Below, piece by piece: positions 11,034 through 27,351 of a stretch of DNA of 32,445 bases (position 1 is the stretch's first letter; each line of letters begins with the position of its first letter). Position numbers and translations under genes: made by a program. The notes under the pieces are model-generated. The model saw only the letters and a program-made list of their open reading frames with translations, ran no database searches and had not been told where the DNA came from. This DNA comes from an uncultured Peptococcaceae bacterium (GTDB lineage Bacteria > Bacillota > Dehalobacteriia > UBA4068 > UBA4997). The stretch spans positions 1-32,445 of the forward strand of contig CANSKT010000010.1 in NCBI GenBank assembly GCA_947647555.1, in the 5' to 3' direction.

Positions 11034-11480
11034 ATGAAAGTTATTTTACTGCAAGACGTTAAGGCGCAGGGCAAGGCCGGCGATATCAAAGAAGTGGCCG
11101 ACGGTTATGCTCGCAATTTTCTGCTGAATAAAAAACTGGCTTTGGAAGCCACACCCCAAAATCTGAAGCATCTGGCCGCCCAGAAGCAAAAACAGGCGGA
11201 AAAAGCGGCTGCCGATTTGGCGGAAGCCAAGGCATTAGCCGCTAAAATTGCCGATATGACGATTGAAATTAAGGTGAAAACCGGCGAGGCCGGCCGCCTT
11301 TTCGGTTCCGTTACCAACAAGGAGGTGGCCGAAGCCATTTCTGCGCAGGTCGGTCAGGCCTTAGACAAGCGCAAGGTGGAAATTAAAGAACCAATTAAAA
11401 CCTTGGGCGAGGCTGAAGCCCTGTTGAAACTGCATACGGAAGTACATCAAAAGGTTAAGCTTAACATCACCGCTCTTTAA
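11034..11480 (+). CDS. rplI: Ribosomal protein L9 (50S subunit)
   Basis: L9 binds 23S rRNA near the base of the L1 stalk and helps keep the reading frame. The 148-residue sequence starts with the family N-domain ([21 protein letters not shown], then DGYARNFLL). A long charged, Ala/Lys-rich central helix follows, and then the C-domain ([16 protein letters not shown]). AGGAGTGAT precedes the ATG at a good distance. It lies 68 nt after yybS and 51 nt before dnaB, in the usual Bacillota order for rplI and the replicative helicase gene. Confidence 0.98.
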
Positions 11481-11531
11481 TTCGGCTTTAATAAAAGCTA
11501 ACCAATTAATATTTAAGTTGAGGTGAACAGC

Positions 11532-12905
11532 TTGCAAAATTCTCGCATACCGCCCCAAAGTCTGGCAGCGGAAAAGGCCGTTCTGGGCGCTTGTTTGCTG
11601 AACGATAGCGCCATTTTCAGCGCTATGGAGTTTGTGCATGCCGCGGATTTTTATAAAAAGGAACATCAGGTTATTTTCCAGACCATGCTGGATTTAAACA
11701 GCGCCAGCTATGTCTGCGATTTGGTAGCTGTATCGGAAAGACTGGCCAAGCAGGGACAGCTGGAAATGGTCGGCGGCCCGGAGTATCTGGCTACGCTCAC
11801 CGGCGAGGTGCCCAGCCTGGCCAATGCCGAATATTACAGTCAGATTGTTGCTGATAAGGCCACCCAGCGTCAGCTTATCAATGCCGCCCAAAAAGTGGTA
11901 GACGACGGCTATCAGGGCCACAAGGACGCTCTGGAACTTTTGGGCGATGCGGCCGCCGTGATTGATAAGGTGGGCGAACAGCGCCTGGGCAGCGGCGTGC
12001 AGGAAGCTGCCTTGGTAATGGAGCGCGAATTTAACAAGCTTGACGATATCAAGGCGCACGACGGCATAACCGGCGTGCCAACTTTCCGCGATTTAGACAA
12101 ATATCTTTCCGGCCTGCAAAAGGGCGATTTGATTATTCTGGCGGCGCGTCCCGGCTGCGGCAAAACATCTATGGCCGTGAATATTGCCGCCAACGCCGCA
12201 CTGGTGCAGGGTATCAGCGCCGTAGTTTTCAGTCTGGAAATGCCCAGCGGACAACTGGCGCAGCGTACTCTGTGCAGTTTTGCCCGGATTGACCAACGCA
12301 AATGGCGCAGCGGCCAGCTGAATAAAAGTGAAAAGGAACTTTTGCATGGCGAGTTGCAAAAATTTCAGAACACCAAGCTGTTTTTTGACGACTCCTCCGC
12401 CATCACAATCCCGGAAATGCGCGCCAAATGCCGCCGGATTAAAACTGAACACGGTTTGGGTTTAATCGTTGTGGACTATTTGCAGCTGATGCGCTCGGCG
12501 CGCCCCACGGAAAGCCGTCAGCTGGAAGTAGCAGAGATTTCACGTTCACTGAAAGCCCTGGCCAAGGAATTAGACGTACCGGTTTTGGCTCTTTCCCAGC
12601 TGGCGCGTACTGCCGAACAAAACAAGGACGGCACTCCCCTGCTCTCGCAGCTGCGTGAATCCGGCGCCATTGAGCAGGACGCTGACGTGGTTATCTTCAT
12701 TAATAATAAACGCAGCGTTGGCGAGGAAAATCAGGACGCCGAGGGCAATCAGCAGATTAACGGCCAGATTGTAGAGGTTATTGTGGCTAAAAACCGTAAC
12801 GGCCCGACTGGTTCTGATGATTTGCTATTTTTCCGCCAATATACGCGTTTTGCAGATATGGTGGAAGATTTTGTCGGCGAAGATGATGATTTTGCACCGT
12901 TTTAA
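11532..12905 (+). CDS. dnaB: Replicative DNA helicase (DnaB; called DnaC in Bacillus)
   Basis: The hexameric helicase unwinds DNA 5' to 3' at the replication fork. The N-terminal primase-interacting domain begins RIPPQSLAAEKAVLG. The RecA-like C-domain has Walker A ARPGCGKTS, the SLEM motif, Walker B LIVVDYLQLM, LSQLAR, the ESGAIEQDADVV segment and a C-terminal KNRNGPTG arginine region. The coding sequence is uninterrupted, with no intein. TTG at 11532 is chosen, giving MQNSRIPPQS: GAGGTG ends 6 nt before it. An in-frame GTG at 11523 lies within that site and has no site of its own. At 457 residues the length is normal. dnaX follows after 24 nt. Confidence 0.97.
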   Translation: MQNSRIPPQSLAAEKAVLGACLLNDSAIFSAMEFVHAADFYKKEHQVIFQTMLDLNSASYVCDLVAVSERLAKQGQLEMVGGPEYLATLTGEVPSLANAEYYSQIVADKATQRQLINAAQKVVDDGYQGHKDALELLGDAAAVIDKVGEQRLGSGVQEAALVMEREFNKLDDIKAHDGITGVPTFRDLDKYLSGLQKGDLIILAARPGCGKTSMAVNIAANAALVQGISAVVFSLEMPSGQLAQRTLCSFARIDQRKWRSGQLNKSEKELLHGELQKFQNTKLFFDDSSAITIPEMRAKCRRIKTEHGLGLIVVDYLQLMRSARPTESRQLEVAEISRSLKALAKELDVPVLALSQLARTAEQNKDGTPLLSQLRESGAIEQDADVVIFINNKRSVGEENQDAEGNQQINGQIVEVIVAKNRNGPTGSDDLLFFRQYTRFADMVEDFVGEDDDFAPF

Positions 12906-12929: not shown

Positions 12930-13979
12930 ATGGAATATATGGCTTTATATCGAAAATACCGCCCCACGCGCCTTTCCGATTTGGTTGGACAGGAACATGT
13001 GGCCAAAACACTGCTAAACGCTTTGAGCAATCAGCGCGTGGCGCATGCCTATATCTTCACTGGGCCGCGCGGCACCGGCAAAACCAGCGCCGCCCTGATT
13101 ATGAGCCGGGCAGTAAATTGTCTGACCCCAACCGCCGAGGGCGAGCCCTGCGGCCAGTGCTCCGCCTGTCAGCGTATTCTCCATGGCACCTCCATGGACG
13201 TTATGGAAATTGACGCGGCCAGTAATCGTGGTATCAATGAAATGCGAGATTTGCGCGACGGTGTTAAATACCTGCCGGCGCAGGAAAAACGCAAGGTTTA
13301 TATCATTGACGAGGTACACATGCTCACCACCGAGGCTTTTAACGCCCTGCTGAAAACGCTGGAGGAGCCGCCGGAACACGTTATGTTCATGTTGGCTACC
13401 ACCGAACCGCATAAAGTGCCAACGACTATCCTGTCACGCTGTCAGCGCTTTGACTTTCACCGTATCGGCCAGCAGCAGCTTTTTGACCATTTGCAGCATT
13501 TGGTGCAGCTGGAGGGGCGCACAGCCGACGAAGCCGCATTGCGCCTGATTGCCCGGCGCGCGGAGGGCGGCCTGCGTGACGCTGTCAGCCTGTTAGACCA
13601 GTGTCTGGTGGCCTCCGAGGGCAATTTAAGCCAGAAAACCATTTCCGGCGTTTTAGGTATCGTTGATGAACGCTTTATTATGGCGATGGCCGAGGCCATT
13701 GCCGCGCATGACGGGCTGCGTATCATCAAAGGTGTGGAACTGCTGGCCAGCGAGGGACGAGATATGCGCCTGTTTTTGCAGCAGCTGCTGGAGTTTGTCC
13801 GGGAGCAGCTTCTGCTAAACATGAGCGGCCAGAAAACCATGCTAAATCGCCAACAGGCGCTGCAAATTCTGCGTGATTTGGTGGACGGCGACCAACGGCT
13901 GCGTTTTTCCCTGACCCCGCGCTTAACATTGGAACTGGCGTTACTGCAAGCGGCGCATTTGGAAAATGCGGCAATGTAA
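12930..13979 (+). CDS. dnaX: DNA polymerase III gamma/tau subunit, short (gamma-like) form
   Basis: This is the AAA+ clamp-loader ATPase. The N-terminus has ALYRKYRPTRLSDLVGQEHV, Walker A GPRGTGKTS, a zinc module of four cysteines (C then CGQCSAC), Walker B YIIDEVHML, sensor 1 LATTEPHKVP, the SRC motif in LSRCQRFDF, and sensor 2 GGLRDAVSLLDQ. Domain III (collar) follows and ends with LTLELALLQAAHLENAAM. At 349 residues the protein stops at the domain III boundary. Typical Bacillota DnaX proteins run to about 550 residues or more, with tau domains that contact the helicase and polymerase. No frameshifted remnant of a tau region is visible: the stop is followed within 20 nt by the -35 of the next promoter. 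GAGGG precedes the ATG. Confidence 0.95.
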   Translation: MEYMALYRKYRPTRLSDLVGQEHVAKTLLNALSNQRVAHAYIFTGPRGTGKTSAALIMSRAVNCLTPTAEGEPCGQCSACQRILHGTSMDVMEIDAASNRGINEMRDLRDGVKYLPAQEKRKVYIIDEVHMLTTEAFNALLKTLEEPPEHVMFMLATTEPHKVPTTILSRCQRFDFHRIGQQQLFDHLQHLVQLEGRTADEAALRLIARRAEGGLRDAVSLLDQCLVASEGNLSQKTISGVLGIVDERFIMAMAEAIAAHDGLRIIKGVELLASEGRDMRLFLQQLLEFVREQLLLNMSGQKTMLNRQQALQILRDLVDGDQRLRFSLTPRLTLELALLQAAHLENAAM

Positions 13980-13994
13980 AAGTGCAAAATTTAC

Positions 13995-14024
13995 TTGACC
14001 CAACAGCGCTTTATATAATATAAT
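13995..14024 (+). promoter_or_regulatory. Sigma-A promoter for ybaB-recR
   Basis: TTGACC (13995-14000) and a perfect TATAAT (14019-14024) are separated by 18 nt; a second overlapping TATAAT lies at 14014-14019. The predicted start near 14031 leaves a leader of about 45 nt before ybaB. It lies entirely between the dnaX stop and ybaB. Confidence 0.8.
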
Positions 14025-14075
14025 TAGAAGCAGGAAAATTAATATACAGGAATGATTAAGGGAGGACAAAAAAAT

Positions 14076-14384
14076 ATGGCTATGGATATGCAGGCAATTA
14101 TGCGCCAGGCGCAGAAAATGCAAAGCGATATGACACGCGCGCAGGAGGAACTGCGTCAGACTGAAGTGGAGGGAAGCGCCGGCGGCGGCGCGGTTAAAGT
14201 TAAAGCCACCTGCGCCAATGAGATTACCGGTCTGGAGATTTCACCAGAAGTTGTTGACCCAGAAGATGTGGAAATGCTTCAGGATTTAATTCTGGCTGCT
14301 ATTAATGACGCTATGAGCAAAGCGGCAGATATTGCCAATGAGCGCATGGGCAAGGTTACTGGCGGCATGAAACTGCCTTTTTAA
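14076..14384 (+). CDS. ybaB: YbaB/EbfC family nucleoid-associated protein
   Basis: This small DNA-binding protein (102 residues) is usually encoded between dnaX and recR. The sequence has the typical Met/Gln-rich N-terminal helix (MAMDMQAIMRQAQKMQ), the EVEGSAGGGAVKVKATC core, the ITGLEISPEVVDPEDVEML segment and the closing GGMKLPF. ATG 14076 is chosen because GGGAGGA lies just upstream; an in-frame ATG at 14052 lies ahead of that site. The gene is 6 nt before recR, and the two form an operon. Confidence 0.95.
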   Translation: MAMDMQAIMRQAQKMQSDMTRAQEELRQTEVEGSAGGGAVKVKATCANEITGLEISPEVVDPEDVEMLQDLILAAINDAMSKAADIANERMGKVTGGMKLPF

Positions 14385-14390
14385 GCGACA

Positions 14391-14996
14391 ATGGCACTTT
14401 ATTTTTACCCACCCTCAGTTGAGGAGCTAATTGCGGCGCTTACCAAGCTGCCCGGCGTTGGCCCTAAGACGGCGCAGCGTCTGGCTATGCATTTGCTGCA
14501 CGCCAGAGAGGAAGACGCTGCCGGTTTGGCAGAGTCCATTTTACAGGCCAGAGAACGGGTACAGCGTTGCCATATCTGCGGCAATTTAACTGACGAGGAA
14601 ACATGCCCGGTTTGTCAAGATGAGCAGCGCGACACCACCACTATTTGCGTGGTTGAGCAGCCCGGCGACTGCATTGTGGTGGAAAAAACAGGCCAGTATC
14701 AGGGGCTTTATCATGTTTTGCATGGCGCGCTTTCGCCAATGGAGGGAATTGGCCCCAACGATTTAAACATGACCAGCTTGATGCGACGGCTGCAAAACGG
14801 CAATGTGCAGGAGGTCATTATGGCCACCAACACCGGCGTGGAGGGCGAAGCCACTGCGCTTTATCTGGCCAGACAGATTAAACCGCTGAATATCAAAGTC
14901 AGTCGGCTGGCCTATGGCGTTGCTGTTGGCGGCGATTTGGAATATACAGACGAAGCCACTTTAGGCCGAGCCTTGCAAGGCAGACTTTCAATATAA
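14391..14996 (+). CDS. recR: Recombination mediator protein RecR
   Basis: RecR works with RecO and RecF to load RecA on gapped DNA. The 201-residue protein has the N-terminal helix-hairpin-helix (LTKLPGVGPKTAQRLAMHLL), a four-cysteine zinc finger (CHICGNLTDEETCPVC), and a Toprim domain starting TTICVVEQPGDC with the GPNDL loop and GVEGEATALYLARQI. It ends with the conserved C-terminal strand (RLAYGVAVGGDLEYTDEATLGRAL). Length and order are standard. It is the last gene before the shared terminator facing flhB. Confidence 0.97.
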   Translation: MALYFYPPSVEELIAALTKLPGVGPKTAQRLAMHLLHAREEDAAGLAESILQARERVQRCHICGNLTDEETCPVCQDEQRDTTTICVVEQPGDCIVVEKTGQYQGLYHVLHGALSPMEGIGPNDLNMTSLMRRLQNGNVQEVIMATNTGVEGEATALYLARQIKPLNIKVSRLAYGVAVGGDLEYTDEATLGRALQGRLSI

Positions 14997-15031: not shown

Positions 15032-16105
15032 TTATATCTCTGCGGCTCTGCCGTCCAATTTGTAAATGTAAACCATAACTTCCGCCACCGCACTATATAA
15101 TTCCGGCGGAATTTCATGGTTCAATTCGGCTTGTGCATAAAGGGCACGTGCCACCGGCACATTCTCAATAACGGTAACCGAATGTTCCTCGGCCACACGC
15201 ACAATTCGCAAAGCCAATTCGTCCATGCCTTTAGCCAAGACAATCGGAGCATTATCCTGCCCCAGCTTATAACGCAATGCCACCGCAAAATGGTTCGGGT
15301 TACGAATAACTACGTCAGACTGCGGAACCTGCTGCATCATGCGTGACTGCGCCATGCGCCGCTGCATTTCCTTAATTTTACCCTTAACCTGTGGGTCGCC
15401 CTCAATCTGCTTGTATTCGTCCTTGACCTCCTGTTTAGACATCTTCATTTCGCGCTCATAGTCCCACCACTGATAAAGATAGTCCAACGCGGCCAAAACC
15501 AGAAAGGCAACGCCCACTTTTAATATCATGAAAAATATTTCATTGAAAAAATGGCGGCAGGCATCGTTAATATCCATATAAAGGAAAGTGGCCGACTCAT
15601 GCAAAATGCCCATCAAACAGGAATAAATCAGGTACAGAAGAACGCATATTTTTAATATGCCTTTAACGGCCTCCACCACACTGCGCAATGAAAAAAGCCG
15701 CTTAAACCCCTGCAAAGGGCTGATACGATTAAACTTAGGCTTCAACAACTCGGAAGAAACCAACATCTTAGTTTGCGCAAAAGTCGCAACTACGGTTACA
15801 AAAACTGTAATCATCAGCATCGGCCCGGCGCATTTAGCCAGGGCCGTTAAAAGCTGAAAAAACAAACCTTTTATATAATAATTATCAGTTTCCGCAAAGG
15901 GAGCCATTGAAACGCATTCAAAAGCGAAGTAAAACACACCATAAATCGTGGCAACCACAACAACAAACATCAAACGCAAAACCAGAGCGCTGCCAAAAAG
16001 CGTAGCTACCGCTACCGCGTCTTTACTGAGAAAAACGTGGCCTTTTTTTCGTTCGTCTTGTCGTTTTTTAGGTGTGGCTTTTTCGGTTTTGGAATCACCT
16101 GCCAA
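15032..16105 (-). CDS. flhB: Flagellar type III export protein FlhB
   Basis: FlhB is the membrane subunit of the flagellar export gate whose cytoplasmic domain switches substrate from rod/hook to filament. The N-terminus (SKTEKATPKKRQDERKKG) is the family signature. About four membrane helices lie between residues 30 and 210, followed by the conserved KMSKQEVKDEYKQ linker. The self-cleavage motif, normally NPTH, reads NPNH here (residues 269-272, at 15290-15301), flanked by normal VVIRNP and HFAVALRY. Start is TTG at 16105 with AGAGGTGGT upstream. It is the last gene of the flagellar operon, 38 nt after motB, away from any fliP/Q/R or flhA. Confidence 0.96.
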   Translation of the reverse strand: MAGDSKTEKATPKKRQDERKKGHVFLSKDAVAVATLFGSALVLRLMFVVVVATIYGVFYFAFECVSMAPFAETDNYYIKGLFFQLLTALAKCAGPMLMITVFVTVVATFAQTKMLVSSELLKPKFNRISPLQGFKRLFSLRSVVEAVKGILKICVLLYLIYSCLMGILHESATFLYMDINDACRHFFNEIFFMILKVGVAFLVLAALDYLYQWWDYEREMKMSKQEVKDEYKQIEGDPQVKGKIKEMQRRMAQSRMMQQVPQSDVVIRNPNHFAVALRYKLGQDNAPIVLAKGMDELALRIVRVAEEHSVTVIENVPVARALYAQAELNHEIPPELYSAVAEVMVYIYKLDGRAAEI

Positions 16106-25668: not shown

Positions 25669-27270
25669 TCAACCATTTTCCTCTTCTTTCAACCAGTTCT
25701 TCACCATCAAAGCGGCAATTTCCGGGTTGTTCTCTGCAAAACGACGAACATCTTTACGCAGCTCCATACTGCGCTCGGTATGGATATCCATAATATCCGC
25801 ATTGACCTCCGGCACCTGCACCTGCATAGCCGCCAGAGCAGCCGCTTCTTCGGCCTCCTGCGCCAAACGCTTCTTCTTGCGATGACGGCGGATTAACAAA
25901 ATCACAATCAACAAAATCAACAGGAACAGAATAGCGCCGGCAATCGCTGCATACAGCACCCAAGCATACTCATTAACTATCGGTTCAATCGGTTCAACCT
26001 GTTCAATCGGCCATGGACGTACCAGCAAAGCAACCTTTTCATTCTGCTGCTCAACTGTAATGCCTGCCGCCCGGGCAATCGCCGCAATCGTTGCATCTGT
26101 CGGCACAGACTCCGGCTGGGCATTAATTGCCACCGTCACCATAACATTGGTAACCGTACCGCCGGCGCTTTCGCGCTGTATCGTCTGCTTGTTATTATCG
26201 TATGTATCCTCGCCGCTGGCGCTCAGGTCGCGCTCCTGACCATCAGGCTGATAACCCTCTTCCACATATGTAGAAATATCAGAGTTAGTTTCAGTACCAA
26301 CCGCGCCGCCAACCGTCTGGTCTTCCTCACGACCAATATTATAACTGTAAACCCGGGTACCGATAATGCCGCGCAAACCGTCGTTGCCCACCACAGCATT
26401 TTCCGGCACCGAATAATTAATATCTTCCTCATAAACCTTGCTGACGTCAACCGTGGCGTTAACAGCAATGCTCAAATTTTCTTCGCCATAAGAATCGCGC
26501 AGCGCGGTCAAAACCTCAGTACGAATTTTATTGCTTACCTGCTCTTCCAAGGCCATCTTAAGGCGCGCCGAATCGGCAAAATCCAGATTGCCGTCGCCGT
26601 TGTAAGAATTGCCATGGTTATCCTCAATGGTTACATTCTCCACCACCAGGCCCTGCACGGCATTGGCCACCAGCCGCCGGATAGAATCCGCCGTCTTGTT
26701 ATCCAGACTTTTTTTAGTACTTTCCAACTCCACAAAAACCGACGCGCTGGCCTCAATTGAAGCGTTGCGGTTCAGAACGTAATCGTTATTAACACCAGTG
26801 GCAATATTCACACTGGCGTTCTGAATACCGTCAAAGCAGCGGATAACGCTGGCCAGACGGTCCTGCAAATCAAACAGATACAGCATCAGCCGGTCTGATT
26901 CCGTGGACAGGGAGGTAATATTACCCAAATACATCTGATAACCCAGGTCACTGCTGGGATACCCCTGCATTAAAAGTTGAGCTTTGAGGGTTGGTTCCTG
27001 ATTTTCCGGCACCAGGATTGTATCATTATTTTCCACCCGATAAGTCTTAATTCCGGAATCATTCAGGTATGTAAGAATAGAGGTCATATCCTCACCGGTC
27101 AACCCCGTAAAAAGCGTTGTATATGGCCTTGTCGACATAACCGCCACCAAAGCAATAATGGCAATCAACATCGTACCAAGCGCAATGGCAATCAGTCTTT
27201 TGGTCTTTTTACTGAACTTGCCAAAGAACTCTTTAATCCGTGGCCATAGTTGTTTCAGTTTCTCTTCCAC
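25669..27270 (-). CDS. fliF: Flagellar MS-ring protein FliF
   Basis: FliF forms the membrane MS-ring on which the basal body is built. The protein (533 residues) has a transmembrane helix near residues 26-45 and a large periplasmic ring domain, including RPYTTLFTGLTGEDMTSIL, DSGIKTYRVENNDTILVP, GYPSSDLGYQMY and RLASVIRCFDGIQNASVNIA. A second membrane helix lies near residue 440, and the cytoplasmic tail ends with the FliG-binding RRFAENNPEIAALMVKNWLKEEE. GTG at 27270 is the likely start: GCGGAGG lies 8 nt upstream, and an ATG at 27351 falls in the promoter. It is the first gene of the operon. No flgB, flgC or fliE precede it. Confidence 0.95.
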   Translation of the reverse strand: MEEKLKQLWPRIKEFFGKFSKKTKRLIAIALGTMLIAIIALVAVMSTRPYTTLFTGLTGEDMTSILTYLNDSGIKTYRVENNDTILVPENQEPTLKAQLLMQGYPSSDLGYQMYLGNITSLSTESDRLMLYLFDLQDRLASVIRCFDGIQNASVNIATGVNNDYVLNRNASIEASASVFVELESTKKSLDNKTADSIRRLVANAVQGLVVENVTIEDNHGNSYNGDGNLDFADSARLKMALEEQVSNKIRTEVLTALRDSYGEENLSIAVNATVDVSKVYEEDINYSVPENAVVGNDGLRGIIGTRVYSYNIGREEDQTVGGAVGTETNSDISTYVEEGYQPDGQERDLSASGEDTYDNNKQTIQRESAGGTVTNVMVTVAINAQPESVPTDATIAAIARAAGITVEQQNEKVALLVRPWPIEQVEPIEPIVNEYAWVLYAAIAGAILFLLILLIVILLIRRHRKKKRLAQEAEEAAALAAMQVQVPEVNADIMDIHTERSMELRKDVRRFAENNPEIAALMVKNWLKEEENG

Positions 27271-27322
27271 ACAATCTGCCTCCGCAACGTCCAATATTCG
27301 GCTTTTACCGCCAATATATTCT

Positions 27323-27351
27323 ATTATAGAACATTTGCAATCTTTTTTCAA
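27323..27351 (-). promoter_or_regulatory. Sigma-A promoter of the fliF flagellar operon
   Basis: On the minus strand TTGAAA (27346-27351) and TATAAT (27323-27328) are separated by exactly 17 nt. Transcription should start near 27316, about 46 nt before the fliF GTG. No sigma-28-type TAAA/GCCGATAA pair with proper spacing was found here. Confidence 0.85.

Follow-up and report, generated by a model that had tools for sequence, protein, structure and literature searches.

The window, i.e., the whole stretch of 32,445 nucleotides that was analysed, carries the gene row rplI, dnaB, dnaX, ybaB, and recR (Table 1). The dnaX product is a clamp-loader ATPase of the gamma/tau family: Pfam recognises an AAA core, a DNAX lid, and domain III in one chain, which scores 416 bits against the TIGR02397 profile (cut-off, 250), and no tau domain, both the helicase-binding domain IV and the polymerase-binding domain V being missing after domain III. 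The residues that we take to form the P-loop (G45, G48, G50, K51, and T52) and to bind zinc (C64, C74, C77, and C80) are invariant in an alignment of 32 rows. The AlphaFold model based on a 32-row alignment (pLDDT, 90.6; last helix, residues 330–341) matches the E. coli gamma chain 8vap_D from end to end (TMq, 0.90; 358 columns; 39% identity), and because of this end-to-end match to E. coli gamma chains, domains I–III are regarded as complete. The window DnaX is a complete domain I–III subunit with nothing beyond domain III. The initial annotation had already placed the end of DnaX at residue 349, at the close of domain III, and next to the helicase gene, and the Pfam domains, the fold match, and the reading frames of the genus all agree with it; the range that it gave, up to 13995, overshoots the stop codon by 16 bp.

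Table 1. Features of the replication gene cluster in the window.
Feature	Position	Strand	Remarks
rplI	11034..11480	+	adjoins dnaB on its upstream side; Pfam
dnaB	11523..12905	+	replicative helicase, 460 aa; stop 24 bp upstream of dnaX
dnaB, last 13 codons	12864..12902	+	acidic tail EDFVGEDDDFAPF, SSB-tip-like, terminal Pro-Phe
dnaX	12930..13979	+	ATG to TAA, 349 aa; clamp-loader domains I–III; tau domains IV–V absent
dnaX–ybaB gap	13980..14051	+	short; relatives encode the tau arms here
Promoter-like element	TTGACC 13995–14000; TATAAT 14019–14024	+	spacer 18; read by eye in the dnaX–ybaB gap
ybaB/ebfC	14052..14384	+	directly 3′ of dnaX; Pfam
recR	14391..14996	+	Pfam

In the genome of the window (G000; 2.17 Mb in 162 contigs, 96% complete), the window dnaX is the single TIGR02397 match above the cut-off, and the next match, at 77 bits, is a delta′-like gene. 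A dnaX search over 61 genomes, including nine from the genus of the window (g1), recovered the gene in eight of these nine, the exception being G003 (81% complete). All eight reading frames span 347–355 codons, share the same end, and lie clear of contig ends, and the proteins counted from ATG are 346–349 aa long; among the 43 dnaX loci outside the genus, four run into a contig end, whereas all the remaining 39 have 468–887 codons. The search for a second dnaX and the length comparison that the initial annotation had proposed thus both came out in its favour. The surroundings of the gene are likewise constant in the eight genus members: dnaB precedes dnaX by 13–27 bp, the stop codon of dnaX lies 58–189 bp before the start codon of ybaB, and no homopolymer near the 3′ end of dnaX exceeds five nucleotides. 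Frameshifting or slippage in the dnaX of the genus is ruled out by these short runs and by the small space before ybaB, and a test for a gamma made beside tau found no slippery site with a downstream tau coding part in any of the eight. The assertion that the stop codon is followed at once by a promoter and ybaB holds for ybaB, the likelier start of which is the ATG at 14076, preceded by GGGAGG; the promoter deserves less weight, as a motif pair read by eye of which TATAAT recurs in the gap of seven of the eight genus members. Pairwise dN within the genus (0.004–0.148) is far below dS (0.22–2.0 where computable), and dnaX, judged by these substitution rates, is under strong purifying selection.

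In a phylum sample of 139 genomes at least 90% complete, the window genome alone has a DnaX frame that is both intact and short. A contig end truncates the dnaX of G036 (380), the tau part of which lies on another contig, and the dnaX of G048 (178) resumes in a second frame. Among 80 dnaX loci of named genomes, three belong to members of the genus and five are cut by contig ends; 69 of the 72 other complete loci have at least 500 codons, and the short ones are L085, L103, and L104. In L085 (from 4001), the short DnaX frame has an A9 run and the tau part resumes in another frame; L103 (from 4001) has a short DnaX frame with a run of nine A and a frame break resembling that of L085. The break is real in L085 and likely to be so in L103, and gamma and tau would probably both be made by slippage; a dnaX frame break thought to be rescued by slippage has been reported in Blochmannia (PMC3017870). 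Unlike these, the short DnaX of L104 looks real. This distant DnaX, from WY5.bin119 (L104, 865–1953), ends at domain III and is followed by a terminator-like hairpin and a T-run, both read by eye, and the DnaB of the same genome (L379) ends in SSEEEF. Its tau absence refers to the dnaX locus only. With this lineage, the candidate tau-less lineages number two.

We searched 27 genomes with a tau domain V profile (A1; 20 rows); its reach is domain V, the disordered domain IV and any separate copy of it lying outside the search. Domain V was found in all 18 genomes outside the genus, in 17 at E ≤2.3e-11 and in G060 at 0.002; the profile contains rows from seven of the 18, and 10 of the other 11 match at E ≤2.3e-11. 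Eight of the nine genus genomes gave no match to the domain V profile, and the one match in G008 (14 bits; E 0.04) looks like chance, no sensible gene occurring in that frame among the listed reading frames. The TIGR02397 search in the window genome and the domain V search in the nine genus genomes rule out a second dnaX or a split tau, and the DnaX of every genus member that yielded the gene lacks tau, as had been claimed for the window gene. The sister genus, represented by G009, retains a 62-residue tau end at a contig edge (E 3.6e-13), which is followed by a stretch of Ns and then by ybaB and recR. In a DnaE tree of 26 rows, seven genus members form one clade (100/100), to which G009 is sister (99/98), with G011 next. 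Since the genus lacks the arms while its relatives, including the sister genus, keep them, the arms would most simply have been deleted once, on the stem of the genus.

The DnaX of B. subtilis recruits PolC. In a search of 46 genomes, PolC was found in none of the 35 members of the order (G000–G034) and in six genomes overall, four of which belong to family f6 of the same class; it was found in none of the four genomes of family f7, also of this class. With PolC missing throughout the order, as in family f7, DnaE therefore replicates alone, and the loss of tau is a milder step than the same loss in E. coli. DnaE is single in the window genome, and some Clostridia are also known to have just one DnaE1 (PMC3919608). 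The rest of the clamp loader is ordinary as far as its sequences tell: neither delta (HolA; 14 aligned, six from the genus) nor delta′ (HolB; 15 aligned, seven from the genus) has an added domain, which rules out a relocation of tau domain V to either subunit. A loss of the C-terminal domain of DnaE together with tau is likewise ruled out, the domain being retained in the genus. Its identity between the genus and G009 is 27–28%, compared with 38–44% in pairs of similar core identity (G009–G011, G010–G016, G016–G018, and G010–G018); it is 30% for G000–G011 and 38% for G008–G011, and these few pairs are suggestive of extra divergence between the genus and G009. In all nine genus members, the DnaE linker that joins the OB fold to the C-terminal domain carries the motif RYP(R/H)RR. 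The linker is present in G009 and G011, which lack the motif, and absent from the DnaE rows of families f2, f4, and f5; being common to G009 and G011, the long linker is older than the loss of tau, and the basic patch is not. The main SSBs of the genus retain normal tips (DDLPF or EDLPF), so that a transfer of the tip from SSB to DnaB is ruled out; G001 and G006 each have, in addition, a short second SSB-like copy with a different end.

The acidic DnaB tail with its terminal Pro-Phe is found in all eight genus members with a readable DnaB end; that of G005 was read from its dnaX contig, and no DnaB was found for G003. The seven typed tails contain no Lys or Arg. The tails of the genus end in FAPF, DAPF, NMPF, or LPPF; they depart from the SSB consensus D-D-D-I/L-P-F, with which only the acidic character and the final -PF are shared. 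As an acidic C-terminal extension of the helicase, the tail has the property expected of a T7-type tether in all eight. The DnaB of the sister G009 and of G011 lacks it. A DnaB end could be read in another 21 members of the order; four of these ends are -PF (G014, G024, G031, and G023) and two are -VF (G026 and G030), and all six belong to family f2 (L223, L284, L288, L278, L283, and L286), so that tails occur within the order in families f1 and f2 only, apparently by a separate gain in f2. The tail does not need the loss of tau, because G014, G024, and G031 carry acidic -PF tails beside a tau-bearing DnaX (the DnaX of G023 is cut by a contig end). In the phylum sample, none of the 70 best-scoring DnaB rows, which are not a random draw, ends in Phe. 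A set of 30 DnaB-like loci was taken from 26 named genomes, most of them distant; the end is visible in 29, and four of these have a final Phe (L361, L368, L379, and L381), including the DnaB of a tau-bearing Paenibacillus (L361), which ends in -APPF. The adjacency of dnaB and dnaX as a cause of the loss of tau is weakened by G033, in which dnaB also lies just upstream of a tau-bearing dnaX.

The reading that we prefer, for which belief and doubt stand almost level, is a tau-free clamp loader at a fork in which DnaE is held by contacts with the clamp, helicase, primase, and SSB, with the DnaB tail as a candidate tether of DnaE. The gamma-like DnaX and the ordinary delta and delta′ would constitute a loader that loads the clamp and has no arms for polymerase or helicase. 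In an earlier step, PolC would have been lost in the order, leaving DnaE as the sole replicative polymerase, which may be kept at the fork by the contacts named. In B. subtilis, DnaE binds the C-terminus of SSB directly (PMC3000357) and is recruited by DnaC, SsbA, and DnaG, with no DnaE–DnaX contact described in the available portion of that report (PMC13220808). The tau arms, which in E. coli bind DnaB through domain IV and the alpha polymerase subunit through domain V (PMC11470591), may have become dispensable because the order, already without PolC, would hold DnaE through other fork contacts; their subsequent deletion is what is seen in the genus. The acidic Pro-Phe tail, in up to six copies per fork hexamer, could then act as a flexible tether that takes over part of the tethering, and is the main candidate for this role in a tau-independent fork. 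Its docking site on DnaE may be the basic RYP(R/H)RR patch, perhaps a counterpart of the tail, or the site that binds the SSB tip. In phage T7, the acidic tails of gp4 bind basic patches of gp5, and without the tails processivity falls from 17 kb to about 5 kb (PMC12593628). A bolder scheme, in which cells arrived at a T7-like arrangement by dropping tau and coupling the DnaB tail directly to a new basic patch of DnaE after the loss of PolC, perhaps repeatedly (this genus and WY5.bin119), is possible but rather unlikely.

These readings compete with several others. The fork might be loosely coupled, with a loader that only loads clamps, a DnaE that is kept in place by its clamp and undergoes exchange, tau arms that were never replaced, and a DnaB tail that is incidental. 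Such a fork would account for the lack of any replacement protein in the domain V search and in the HolA and HolB alignments, and for the divergence that separates the genus from G009 in the C-terminal domain of DnaE, as if a constraint had been released, few as the compared pairs are; we consider it unlikely, since the DnaB tail and the DnaE patch are maintained throughout the genus and since a weakened tau–alpha contact harms genome stability and viability in E. coli (PMC11470591). It would nevertheless be a second way for such a replisome to work, and the earlier statement that the replisome must couple helicase and polymerase in another way is too strong, given that other contacts and loose coupling are both possible; the observation made in the initial annotation is confirmed, and its interpretation is partly supported. 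Alternatively, the role of tau may reside in another protein, either highly diverged or unrelated, with DnaX, DnaB, and DnaE as its partners. Domain V is a small domain of variable sequence, the profile is blind to an unrelated analogue and to the disordered domain IV, and the window genome is 96% complete; yet the same profile caught the 62-residue fragment of G009 and, at E ≤2.3e-11, domain V in 10 of the 11 genomes that had not contributed to it and found nothing real in the nine genus genomes, and HolA and HolB gained no domain, which makes this protein quite doubtful.

The tail itself could be a mimic of the SSB tip that serves PriA, RecG, or DnaG and not DnaE, independently of the loss of tau. 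SSB tips have many binding partners (PMC3000357), and tails also occur on the DnaB of tau-bearing relatives; against this, only f2 has tails outside f1, all eight readable genus members have one while the sister does not, and DnaE is itself a known partner of the SSB tip (PMC3000357), so that we hold this use of the tail to be very doubtful. A tau part concealed by an assembly error or a programmed frameshift, for which L085, with its A9 run and second frame, and the similar L103 offer real examples, is extremely improbable here, where eight separate genomes share the same end, homopolymers do not exceed five, and the space before ybaB is insufficient; to the extent that assemblies can tell, the earlier judgement that a frameshift is unlikely is borne out.

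Returning to the preferred reading of a tau-free loader with DnaE held by other contacts, each of its parts has likenesses in known systems. The gamma isoform of E. coli likewise consists of domains I–III, with a fold match over its full length; it is made by frameshifting beside tau, whereas the DnaX of the genus is the sole product of a sole dnaX and, unlike E. coli gamma, ends without any piece of domain IV. The DnaX of Serratia symbiotica STs, an aphid endosymbiont, is also reported to be without tau domains IV and V (PMC5013485); that bacterium is host-restricted with an eroding genome, whereas the loss described here is genus-wide, in genomes of 1.4–2.3 Mb, with flagellar genes in the window and strong purifying selection. 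T7 gp4 and gp5 resemble the genus in the acidic flexible C-terminal tail of a hexameric helicase and the basic patch of a polymerase (PMC12593628); here DnaB and DnaE stand in their place, a clamp loader is present, and the tail–patch contact is a candidate drawn from sequence. The SSB tip (DDDI/LPF) shares with the DnaB tail an acidic run followed by Pro-Phe at the protein end (PMC3000357), but the tail sits on a helicase, has A, M, or P and not I or L before the Pro, and coexists with SSBs that keep their own tips. Like the fork proposed here, the DnaC–DnaG–DnaE primosome of B. subtilis relies on helicase, primase, and SSB, and not on DnaX, to bring DnaE (PMC13220808), although both PolC and a full tau are present in B. 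subtilis and absent from the genus.

A review of 2012 held that all bacteria likely keep three tau at the fork (PMC3290774). A literature search for tau-less DnaX, with most subscription papers outside its scope, returned one precedent, that of S. symbiotica, and no genus-wide loss of tau in genomes of 1.4–2.3 Mb; a search of the same scope returned no report of acidic or SSB-like tails on DnaB. What is new is thus the genus-wide loss outside endosymbionts, the acidic DnaB tail with its final Pro-Phe, and the genus-specific patch of DnaE, the tau-less DnaX itself having a precedent. Bacteria other than reduced endosymbionts, with genomes of about 2 Mb, can do without tau, and the genus offers a natural test of the purpose of coupling through tau and of a helicase tail as its substitute. 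The named genus members are all metagenome assemblies, and a cultured strain is therefore lacking; a literature search for the habitat of the named relatives returned no papers.

Two further observations concern the surroundings of these genes. Flagellar genes, FlhB and FliF, lie near the replication cluster (window positions 15032–16105 and 25669–27351), and would not be expected in a reduced endosymbiont. Furthermore, the C-termini of tau in family f2 (L027, L031, L161–L167, L170, and L171) have a conserved SLF, ALF, or RLF, often as QxSLF. This type of end resembles a beta-clamp-binding motif, through which the tau of family f2 may itself touch the clamp.
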